NCBI GenBank assembly: GCA_017392525.1
Contig: JAFOVD010000037.1
Location: forward strand, 1-37,929
From: Lachnospiraceae bacterium
Lineage (GTDB): Bacteria > Bacillota > Clostridia > Lachnospirales > Lachnospiraceae
DNA: 37,929 nt
Direction: 5' to 3'
How positions within the stretch are numbered: position 1 is the stretch's first letter; each line of letters opens with the position of its first letter. The notes under the pieces were generated by a model. It was not told the DNA's origin and did not search any database. It saw only the letters and a list, made by a program, of their open reading frames with translations. Shown here piece by piece: positions 34,362 through 37,929 of this stretch. The position numbers and the translations under genes are program-made.

Positions 34362-35561
34362 TTAATCTTCTAATAAAAATTTTGCCATAGCGTAGTTACT
34401 TAAATCCATTCCACGCTCTGTTAAAAACACTCTTCCTTCATACATATCCAGAAGTTCTTCCCTGCGAAGCTCCGCAATTACATCCCGGTAAATCAAATCC
34501 ATTCTGGTACCAAAACGTTCTTCAAAATCAGCAAGCGAAACACCATCTGTCATACGAAGACCGAGAAACATAAATTCCTCCATCTCATCATTTCTCGTAC
34601 GACTCTGTAATGTCTCCTCATCCATCCAATGATTTCCGGCAGTATCATTTCTATCATACGCTTCAGAAGCTTCTATATAATCATATATGTTTGTCTTGTT
34701 TGAATATCGAACTCCATCTATATAAGAAGAAGCTCCCAAACCCGCACCCAGGTACGGCACCATCGTCCAATAGCCACTGTTATGCTCACCCTCATATCCG
34801 GGTTTCGCAAAGTTGGATATCTCGTATTTCCGATAGCCATTGGCTGCCAGGAAATGTTCCGTTTGCTTGGTAAGTTCATATACCTGATCTTCCGTCGGCA
34901 AAATCTCCGTCTGCATTCCGGCTTCCTGCCTAACGCTGTCAAACTGATATTTCTCGTAAAAAGGTGTTCCCTTTTCAATAATAAGAGAATATGCAGATAT
35001 ATGTTCCGGATGTAATCGCACAACCGTATCCAATGTATTCTGTAATTTCTGAGGATTCTGATAAGGCAATCCCGTCATCACATCAACATTAATATTCATA
35101 AATCCGGCATTTCTTGCAAGCTCAAAGGTATGCAAAAAGCGTTTCAAATCATGAACTCGGCCTAGCAACTTCAATTCATCCTCATTTGCAGATTGCAGAC
35201 CTATGCTAAGTCGATTAAATCCCATCATGTGAAATGCACGAAGAGAATCCCTGGTCACTGTCCCCGGATTACACTCCAATGTAATCTCCGCTCCCTCATT
35301 GATTCTGAACCATTTGACAATGGTATCCATTATAAGTTTTATACAGTCTGTTTCCAACCAGGTTGGTGTACCACCGCCAAAATAGATGGAACGCAGGGGA
35401 TAACGATATGTCTTCCCCTGATATTCCAGTTCCTTTACCAGTGCCGCCGTATACGTTCTACGCATTTTCTCATCGTATACTCCGGATAAAAAATCGCAGT
35501 AATTACACTTCTTCATGCAGAAAGGAATATGGACATATAACTCTTGTTCTCTAATCTTCAT
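34362..35561 (-). CDS. hemW: Radical SAM heme chaperone HemW
   Basis: This is a 399-aa member of the coproporphyrinogen oxidase-like radical SAM family. The cluster motif CMKKCNYC (CX3CX2C) near residue 15 lies in [16 protein letters not shown]. The GGGTPTWL motif, the NPGT segment and the C-terminal HemW extension follow. True HemN has an additional upstream cysteine, which is absent here, so HemW is the better name. The start codon overlaps the end of lepA by 11 bases. The lepA-hemW order is widespread in Firmicutes. Confidence 0.93.
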
Positions 35562-37362
35562 CTAACTTCAGTACACTCATGAATGCTTCCTGCGGAATCT
35601 CTACATTTCCAACCTGGCGCATTCTCTTCTTTCCTTCCTTCTGTTTCTCAAGAAGCTTCTTCTTACGGCTGATATCACCACCGTAACACTTCGCCAATAC
35701 ATCCTTTCGCATTGCTTTGACAGTTTCACGCGCAATAACCTTGTTACCGATTGCAGCCTGAATAGGAATTTCAAACATATGTCTTGGAATTTCACCCTTA
35801 AGCTTCTCACACATCTTACGACCGCGTTCGTAAGCAGTTCCTTCAAATACAATAAAGGAAAGTGCGTCCACTGTTTCCTTATTAATGAGGACATCCAGCT
35901 TCACAAGCTTGGATTCAACATATCCCTTCATTTCATAATCAAATGAAGCATATCCACGGGTTCTGGACTTTAATGCATCAAAGAAATCGTAGATAATTTC
36001 ATTCAGTGGCAATACATACTTAATAAGTGCACGTGTTTCCTCCATGTATTCCATGCTGACATAGATACCACGTCTCTCCTGGCAAAGATCCATTACAGCC
36101 CCCACATACTCAGAGGTTACCATAATTTCCGCATCTACCACCGGCTCTTCCATATAATCTATCTCAGATGGATCCGGAAGATTTGATGGGTTGGTAAGTT
36201 CAATCATAGTACCATCTGTCTTATGCACACGATAAACAACTCCCGGTGCGGTTGTAACAAGATCCAGGTTGTACTCTCGTTCAAGTCTTTCCTGAATTAC
36301 ATCCAAGTGAAGCAATCCCAAAAATCCACATCGGAAACCAAATCCAAGGGCAATAGAGGTTTCCGGTTCAAACTGCAGTGCAGCATCATTTAACTGTAAT
36401 TTCTCAAGTGCATCTCTAAGGTCTGTATATTTAGAAGAATCTGCAGGATATAGACCGCAGTAAACCATCGGATTTACCTTCTTGTATCCCGGAAGGGGTT
36501 CTGCACACGGACGATTATGTTCTGTAACCGTATCACCCACACGTGTTTCCTGCACATCTTTAATACTTGCCGTAAAATAACCAACAGTACCGGCCGGCAG
36601 CTCATCACAGGGAATAAACTGTCCCGCACCAAAATATCCAACTTCAACTACCTCTTCAACAGCGCCCGTTGCCATCATGCGAACCTTCATTCCTGCCTTC
36701 AGGGTACCCTCTTTAATACGACAGAATACAATTACGCCACGGTAAGCATCATAGAGAGAATCGAAAATCAAAGCCTGTAACGGAGCAGTTGCATCCCCTG
36801 TTGGAGCAGGAAGCTTTGTAACAATCTCCTCTAATACGTCTTCCACATTTAATCCCGTCTTCGCGGAAATACATGGTGCATCCTGTGCTTCTATCCCAAT
36901 CACATCCTCGATTTCATCCTTGACACGATCCGGATCTGCACTTGGTAAATCAACCTTGTTGATAACCGGAATAACATCCAGGTCATGATCCAAAGCCAGG
37001 TAAACATTAGCCAGAGTCTGCGCCTCAATTCCCTGTGCAGCATCAACCACAAGGATTGCGCCATCACACGCTGCAAGACTTCGTGAAACTTCATAGTTAA
37101 AATCCACATGTCCCGGAGTATCTATTAAATTAAAGATATACTCGTTGCCATCTTTTGCATGATAAATCAAACGAACTGCCTGAGATTTAATGGTAATCCC
37201 GCGTTCTCTCTCCAGTTCCATATTGTCAAGCACCTGCGCCTGCATTTCACGTTCTGTCAAAAGACCGGTCATCTGAATCATACGATCAGCCAATGTTGAT
37301 TTTCCATGATCAATATGCGCAACAATACAAAAATTACGAATCTTATCCTGTTCGAATGTCAT
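35551..37362 (-). CDS. lepA: Elongation factor 4 (LepA), ribosome-associated GTPase
   Basis: This is a 603-aa translational GTPase. It has the N-terminal G1 motif AHIDHGKST, the G3 motif DTPGHVDF and the G4 motif NKVD, then domains II, III and V. The LepA-specific C-terminal domain has [28 protein letters not shown]. The length is normal. The start has GAGAGG upstream and a probable promoter at 37411-37440. It is the first gene of lepA-hemW. Confidence 0.98.
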
Positions 37363-37440: not shown

Positions 37441-37614
37441 GCAAACCCCAAAAATTCTCCCTTCCATTCTGCAAAGGGCACGTGACCGATGCTCGTTTTT
37501 TGCATATTGAAAAATAATAATATTCGCGAAAATATGGCGGCGGGCCGTCGAGGAGCGTAAGAAATGACGGTATTACCTGGAAGCGAATGAAGGAACGGGA
37601 TAATGGAGAAATTT
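37441..37614. other. Non-coding segment upstream of the nested palindrome
   Basis: No gene is supported here. The part from about 37530 to 37605 is richer in G and purines than its surroundings (GGCGGCGGGCCGTCGAGG, then AGCG...GACGG and AGCG...AACGGG). It contains two loosely similar units starting AGCG (37555 and 37582). It leads directly into the inverted repeat and may belong to the same element. Confidence 0.4.
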
Positions 37615-37807
37615 GTTACTATTCACAGTTATAGAATATTTAAAATGTATTCTGTCCAAATTTATTTGGTAAGAAATACTTTTAAATATTCTATAAACTG
37701 GAATCAGTGACTCCACCCACATGAATAATGTTAAGTGCTTCAGCACTGAGAAAGAAGTCTGAAAGACTTCCATTATGAATGTGGGTGGAGTTACTGTGAA
37801 TAGTAAC
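37615..37807 (+). repeat. 193-nt nested inverted repeat with cloverleaf-like fold
   Basis: The outer arms GTTACTATTCACAG (37615-37628) and CTGTGAATAGTAAC (37794-37807) are perfect complements. Inside are two long arms. Arm A has TTATAGAATATTTAAAA (37629-37645) pairing perfectly with 37680-37696 and capped by a CCAAA/TTTGG hairpin. Arm B has AGTGACTCCACCCACAT (37706-37722) pairing with 37779-37795, then a GA/GA internal loop and ATAATG/CATTAT. It ends in two small hairpins, AGTGC-TTCA-GCACT and GAAGTCT-GAA-AGACTTC. The one non-Watson-Crick pair in arm B is G-U on the plus strand but C-A on the minus strand, and GA/GA is stable only on the plus strand. This favours a plus-strand RNA fold. Family is unknown. 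Confidence 0.9.
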
Positions 37808-37837
37808 TTATCTATAGTCGGGGAGGCTGTGAGTTCT

Positions 37838-37929
37838 ATGAGATTTCTTATCTTTGAAATGAAAACAGTATGCTACAATTCATATCTTTATTTTGGTGAC
37901 TCTCTTGGTGAGGCTCTTACAAAGCTTGG
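37838..37929 (+). CDS. Unrecognised gene, 5' end only (truncated by the window)
   Basis: An ATG at 37838 opens a frame with no stop to the window end (30 codons), starting MRFLIFEMKTVCYNSYLYFG. GGGGAGG (37820-37826) lies 11 bases upstream, a little far but strong. The short hydrophobic first strand followed by a possible helix (GDSLGEALTKLG) is like the N-terminus of a GT-B glycosyltransferase, but 30 residues cannot establish this. It starts 30 bases after the nested palindrome, which would lie in its leader. Confidence 0.45.
   Translation, partial: MRFLIFEMKTVCYNSYLYFGDSLGEALTKL

Follow-up and report, generated by a model that had tools for sequence, protein, structure and literature searches.

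What is the large nested palindrome near the end of the window, the whole 37,929-nucleotide (nt) stretch of Lachnospiraceae DNA analysed here? It occupies positions 37615..37807, and a first-pass annotation, made from the letters alone, had left it as a structured RNA or small mobile element. Target-site duplications, dispersed copies, covariation and a preference for folding of the sense strand indicate that both descriptions apply to one object. We propose, with a probability of about three in four for the explanation as a whole, that the palindrome is a MITE moved by an IS66-family transposase, that its sense strand folds into a cloverleaf maintained by selection and likely acting as RNA, and that this copy is probably one of the two ends of a larger composite unit.

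The palindrome is organized as a closing stem with three arms. The outer arms (37615-37629 and 37793-37807) match at 100% over 15 bp; the perfect outer stem described earlier is thus present, with a length of 15 bp in place of the 14 bp given. The left terminal inverted repeat, GTTACTATTCACAG (37615..37628, plus strand), supplies the 5′ half of the closing stem, in which pairing extends to 37629, and the right repeat (37794..37807, minus strand) is its reverse complement. On the plus strand, arm 1 (37629..37696) is a long hairpin with a hypervariable yet complementary stem; its halves (37629-37661 and 37664-37696) match at 82% over 33 nt and include the 17-bp perfect stretch that had been reported as an arm. 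Arm 2 (37697..37708) is the small hairpin ACTGGAATCAGT. Arm 3 (37709..37792) has a stem of 26 nt (37705-37730 and 37771-37796, 88%) that contains the previously noticed GA/GA internal loop, at 37723-37724 and 37777-37778, and it opens, as had been described, into two small hairpins (37734-37747 and 37754-37770). Segment 37600-37830 folds with a minimum free energy of −97 kcal/mol, whereas 200 dinucleotide-shuffled versions give −44.7 ± 4.2 (z = −12.5) and not one of them reaches the native value; with the comparison of the arms, this bears out the three nested levels of inverted repeats.

An Rfam scan of the window gave no gathering-level match. The host gene on the left is lepA (elongation factor 4; 35551..37362, minus strand), and the segment 37363-37929 contains one promoter-like match, on the minus strand within the element, where 2.1 would be expected by chance, and one terminator-like match, outside it. 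A single open reading frame (ORF) of at least 60 amino acids (aa) overlaps the element (66 aa, minus strand). A size of 193 bp, the lack of a transposase and 15-bp perfect ends are the features of a bacterial MITE.

One copy of the element was found in this incomplete genome, in which the 14-nt GTTACTATTCACAG occurs four times, twice in the window and twice on contig C11. A direct DNA search of 61 genomes returned just one weak match to arm 1 (E of 8e-4) outside this genome, an outcome explained by the turnover of the letters; relatives became accessible through the ends that they share. Scanning of named genomes gave at least 119 stretches with both end arms 150-180 nt apart, and the 80 matches listed carry titles of Lachnospiraceae or other Clostridia, one being titled just 'bacterium'. 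Exact-ended pattern matches were present in 12 of 299 genomes of the family, against none for a reversed control pattern, with at most 8 end-pattern matches per genome, some of them with a different interior. The two-ended pattern gave no match in viral contigs. Carriers available in culture among the hits include Catenibacillus scindens, Schaedlerella arabinosiphila and Pseudobutyrivibrio xylanivorans.

We examined 123 elements, comprising the scan stretches, the window copy and loci L009, L012 and L166, with orientation assigned by geometry and not by energy. A cloverleaf fold with the shorter arm first was found for 111, which reduce to 110 distinct elements because the window copy and L062 are identical; the 12 without this geometry were dropped (L027, L032, L042, L061, L068, L072, L098, L102, L121, L129, L131 and L141). 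The fold filter behind the covariation set passed 75 of 83, and alignment A1 contains 74 of these (73 distinct), L090 being omitted as very like L035. The filter and the fixed-end pattern bias the sets towards cloverleafs and conserved ends. R1, a covariance model trained on 74 elements, had matches in 15 of the 61 genomes, some of which are cloverleafs with other ends. Through the shared ends and R1, the search for further copies that the first-pass annotation had recommended turned up many relatives.

Clean junctions had also been named as a mark of mobility. Exact 8-bp direct repeats flank 33 of the 110 elements (46 with up to one mismatch), whereas shuffled flanks gave a mean of 0.32 and a maximum of 3; exact repeats of 4 and 7 bp were found once each, and those of 5, 6 and 9-12 bp not at all. 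Cloverleafs of 174 bp in genome G032, with ends GTAACAGTTCAGCC, have exact 8-bp repeats in 12 of 20 cases and repeats with up to one mismatch in 17, and those of 141 bp in G028, with ends GTAACTGTTCAGAGCC, in 8 and 10 of 10, respectively; flanks were read for 20 of the 39 R1 matches in G032 and for all 10 in G028. No duplication turned up in the scan of L239-L248, ten cloverleafs that occur singly and have other types of end again. The ends and the duplications indicate that the palindrome is a non-autonomous DNA transposon (MITE). A tRNA gene lies within 150 bp of 7 of the 110 main-family elements, against 1.44 expected for random positions, a proximity that a preference for intergenic sites may explain. 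At L247 (G001:C122), a related cloverleaf begins 3 bases past a tRNA gene.

The two GTTACTATTCACAG copies on C11 face each other over a 2,962-bp span with 17-bp perfect repeats, and between them lies an IS66-family transposase (NCBIfam NF033517, 183.9 bits with a cut-off of 180; Pfam PF03050). All three transposase sites found through protein search (G000, G009 and G067) adjoin GTTACYATTCACA; at a fourth, in G025, a 64-aa C-terminal match was retrieved through the end motif itself. The MITE and the IS66 element on C11 have their terminal repeat in common, and the 8-bp duplication flanking the MITEs is the length that IS66 transposition leaves; unlike an IS66 insertion sequence, the element has no transposase in its 193 bp. 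The shared ends suggest that an IS66-family transposase moves the element in trans, in which case the enzyme would bind its 14-17-bp ends and produce the 8-bp target duplication. Two full-length IS66 elements, on C11 (AAATTTCT and TATATGTT) and in G067 (AAAAATTT and ACTATTCA), lack matching 8-bp sequences at their two sides, so the duplication length is assigned to this transposase indirectly. Close transposases (E ≤ 1e-50) are present in 3 of the 299 family genomes, and among the 12 element-bearing genomes one occurs together with an exact-ended element only in G000, the genome of the window. At L025 (1550-1942 and 3792-4280), the IS66 copy includes an upstream ORF of 130 aa and, on the opposite strand, one of 162 aa, neither of which has a Pfam or NCBIfam match above cut-off.

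The same observations bear on the proposal that the palindrome is an IS200/IS605-type element moved as single-stranded DNA. Strand-specific hairpins would suit that proposal, but exact 8-bp duplications, perfect terminal inverted repeats and ends common to elements with an IS66 transposase do not; IS200/IS605-type elements are not known to have target duplications or perfect terminal inverted repeats, and we rejected this reading as barely credible.

The 8-mers on either side of the window copy differ (AGAAATTT and TTATCTAT). The one on the lepA side (37607..37614, unstranded), a putative copy of the target-site duplication, recurs on C11 next to the boundary of the IS66 copy that faces rpsT, which places AGAAATTT at both outer ends; because the window copy's own flanks are unmatched, the 8-bp match requires this second contig of an incomplete MAG (78.6%, 65 contigs). 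The window is the whole of contig C19, which ends 122 bp beyond the element, and rpsT (ribosomal protein S20, PF01649) is found on C11, adjoining the IS66 copy. G003, a relative with a near-complete genome, has lepA and rpsT as divergent neighbours with no such insert between them. At a different site in L062, positions 37615-37929 of the window (315 bp, element plus 122 bp of cargo) recur at 100% identity; L062 is from a different species, as the Mur-ligase region beside it shares about 70-71% identity with the genus, including this genome. The stretch 37808..37929 (plus strand) would be the start of the cargo. A gene that begins there at 37838 continues in L062 as a glycosyltransferase-like protein (PF13524). 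Beyond the part matching the window, L062 has this gene and an HMGL-like gene; neither was found in the rest of our assembly.

A composite transposon comprising the MITE, polysaccharide-type cargo and IS66 probably lies between lepA and rpsT, with the window copy as its end next to lepA, and the simplest account of the match in L062 is that the unit is also shared with another species. We infer this unit, since neither contig runs through the whole cargo and the two sources are MAGs. Misassembly, by which unrelated pieces were fused at a repeated end in this MAG or in the L062 MAG, would accord with the incompleteness of the assembly, with the two contigs stopping within the supposed cargo and with an identity to L062 that is traceable only up to the window's end. 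However, the outer 8-mers agree, lepA and rpsT adjoin in G003, and the element with the start of its cargo recurs at 100% in L062, which makes an artefact somewhat unlikely. The proposed composite transposon resembles units in which a MITE forms one end of a cargo-bearing element, reportedly IMU in Enterobacter and TIME-COMP in Pseudomonas, and differs from them in that the other end is an IS66 copy, the start of the cargo is of polysaccharide type and no single contig closes the unit. Upstream of lepA, at 37465-37531, there is a second repeat of dispersed type, CGATGCTCGTTTTTTGCATATTGAAAAAT..ATTCGCGA; further copies are found on contigs C40 and C21 of this genome and in G003, with a facing pair in L200, and it is absent from the lepA-rpsT gap of G003.

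Across the relatives, the cloverleaf is kept while its letters have largely changed, suggesting selection on the fold itself. A 77-pair structure taken from individual folds is paired in 84.5% of cells in A1, against 66.8% in shuffled alignments, and 59 of the 77 pairs change on both sides, with a covariation score of 0.454 as compared with 0.166 for shuffled alignments and 0.09-0.13 with partners slid; the compensatory changes that had been set as a check on a structured RNA are therefore seen. RNAalifold, unaided, recovers 49 pairs, of which 35 change on both sides. In the columns of the arm-1 stem, the median pairwise identity is 0.38 and the minimum 0.07; the identity of the end columns largely reflects the search pattern, in which both ends were fixed. 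Particular motifs recur amid this turnover. Arm 1 in many relatives has a GTC/GTAAG-type internal loop and a GCTTGC cap, arm 2 reads CTGNGAAGCAG in 58 and CTGGAATCAG in 14 of the 110 elements, and the internal loop of arm 3 is AA/GC in 38, GA/GA in 19 and AA/GA in 3, the other 50 lying outside the motif as written. The recurrent hairpin caps in the 110 folds are C-GAA-G (76), G-CTTG-C (64) and C-GTAA-G (30).

Which strand folds, and in which chemical form? The GA/GA loop and a G-U pair had been taken as favourable only in plus-strand RNA. As regards the strand, the argument holds, in that RNA energies favour the sense strand in 102 of the 110 elements. As regards RNA, it does not, because a DNA model favours the same strand (104 of 110), and folding energy cannot tell RNA from DNA. 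Among non-Watson-Crick cells, G-U outnumbers A-C by 305 to 199 (519 to 462 after shuffling), and of 63 pairs G-U leads in 36 and A-C in 24. Covariation and strand asymmetry, both measured on filtered sets, suggest that one folded strand is maintained by selection.

Complementary arms could also arise by mutation in an ordinary MITE with a functionless folded strand, through template switching at quasi-palindromes, given that long perfect palindromes are substrates for template-switch correction; the lack of an orientation bias relative to genes (below) fits such an origin. Correction should erase mismatches, yet the defined internal loops of arm 3 persist in renewed stems (38 AA/GC, 19 GA/GA and 3 AA/GA of 110). 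The strand asymmetry (102 of 110) and an architecture common to elements with other ends likewise count against this origin, which we consider quite improbable. Alternatively, the conserved form could be one strand of DNA, folded while single-stranded, as in replication or transposition, for instance. The preference of DNA energies for the sense strand and the prevalence of C-GAA-G triloops, the commonest cap and of a kind very stable in DNA, would allow this. IS66, though, is a DDE-type family with double-stranded intermediates, the G-CTTG-C and GTAA caps and the excess of G-U over A-C suit RNA too, and the related Clostridiales-1 is classed as an RNA family; we regard the DNA form as unlikely. 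We infer RNA to be the likeliest acting form, because the fold resembles the Clostridiales-1 candidate RNA.

Clostridiales-1 RNA (Rfam RF01699; Weinberg 2010, PMC2864571) is described, in the portion of that report relied on here, as a probable RNA that is neither cis-regulatory nor a switch. It has in common with the window family a closing stem, a long first arm with a GCUUGC cap, an arm with an AUGAGCA/UGCGAAU-type loop and a dispersed distribution, and the models cross-match in both directions, below cut-off. RF01699 matched 4 of 14 elements with window-type ends, all under its cut-off of 48 bits: L099, which scored highest among them (40.7 bits in the set, 32.1 alone), L031, L127 and L133. 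On the window, which was one of the 14, it gave no match even at E ≤ 10. Among other-ended elements, it matched L173, L174 and L175 below cut-off and gave no match on L168, L169, L170, L171, L172, L179, L187 and L188. Conversely, R1 was run on 33 of the loci fetched for RF01699 and gave 12 matches at E ≤ 0.1 (best 1e-7), all at RF01699 positions and in 11 of the 33 loci; on 17 control loci there were none at E ≤ 1. RF01699 is found in 24 of 61 genomes, with up to 36 matches per genome, and has no match in this genome or in any of 14 control genomes.

The Clostridiales-1 copies (L249-L268 and L277-L296) sit in elements with ends of their own, TGATRYYRGGGTCAAAAGG. An exact 5-bp duplication flanks 13 of the 22 loci, out of 40, that have a recognizable second end (control mean 1.2, maximum 5), and a 6-bp duplication flanks 2 of the 22; the other 18 were not counted. 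Clostridiales-1 RNA thus appears to be mobile too, presumably by another transposase, since its ends and its 5-bp duplications differ from those of the window family, with its 8 bp. Ends of the types GTTACTATTCA, GTAACAGTTCA and GTAACTGTTCA look like diverged relatives, which softens end swapping as the sole story, and the 5-bp class is distinct. We tentatively suggest, at odds somewhat short of even, that at least two unrelated systems of transposition (8-bp and 5-bp), and several diverged ends, have carried one structured RNA or folded strand. Selection would in that case act lastingly on the folded strand and not on the transposon: an RNA-like parasite or helper, using borrowed transposases, would preserve its cloverleaf through the turnover of its letters, and Clostridiales-1 would be one branch of a superfamily.

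The position of the element just upstream of a same-strand gene start, at 37838, had raised the alternative of a structured 5′ leader or riboswitch acting in cis. Of the 87 main-family elements flanked by called genes, 29 are oriented with both neighbours and 26 against both, 23 lie between divergent and 9 between convergent genes; the remaining main-family elements are at edges (22) or, by crude ORF calls, inside ORFs (2). The G032 and G028 families have 10 with, 5 against, 12 divergent, 2 convergent and 1 at an edge, and the rest, including the Clostridiales-1 loci, 8 with, 10 against, 4 divergent, 3 convergent, 3 at edges and 2 inside. So even an orientation argues against a leader, which should keep a constant orientation to its downstream gene; we rejected this very improbable reading. 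It also weakens models that need sense transcription from neighbouring genes.

One such model is a possible action of the cloverleaf, to which we give about half the weight of the contrary view. A transcript crossing the element would form the cloverleaf, which would be recognized or cut by a double-strand RNase; this could separate or buffer the neighbouring messages and so let intergenic insertions survive. Correia and ERIC elements are likewise MITEs with transcripts that can be processed, and they have conserved letters and simpler hairpins, whereas here the letters change and the three-armed fold stays. For Correia, a passage of a review (PMC10969869) has RNase III cleaving the Correia-bearing message at the terminal repeats. 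The even orientation counts against the RNase model; the cloverleaf might instead act in trans or at some step of the transposition cycle.

MITEs and IS66 are already known, as is the Clostridiales-1 candidate RNA. In the open-access literature searched, without supplements, we found no report in print of a Clostridiales-1-type fold in transposable elements of two duplication lengths, and none of the end letters. The present analysis places the orphan RNA family Clostridiales-1 and its unrecognized relatives inside transposable elements of Lachnospiraceae, which would explain why the family was listed without a gene association, and it offers a case of a mobile element that retains its fold through extensive replacement of its stem letters. 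Calls of Clostridiales-1-type RNAs in genome annotation can therefore mark mobile elements, and the role of the RNA becomes directly testable through mobility and through breakage and restoration of the arms.

The ends of the window element are also seen on other repeats. In G007, hairpins of about 36 bp (L011, L016, L018, L020 and L022) combine this 14-nt end with an imperfect partner on the other side, and are possibly solo ends or a REP-like repeat. L027, L042 and L129 hold a different repeat of 199-200 bp with the same ends, from a roe-deer rumen genome, and short hairpins of the 36-bp type can be read inside it in L027 and L042.
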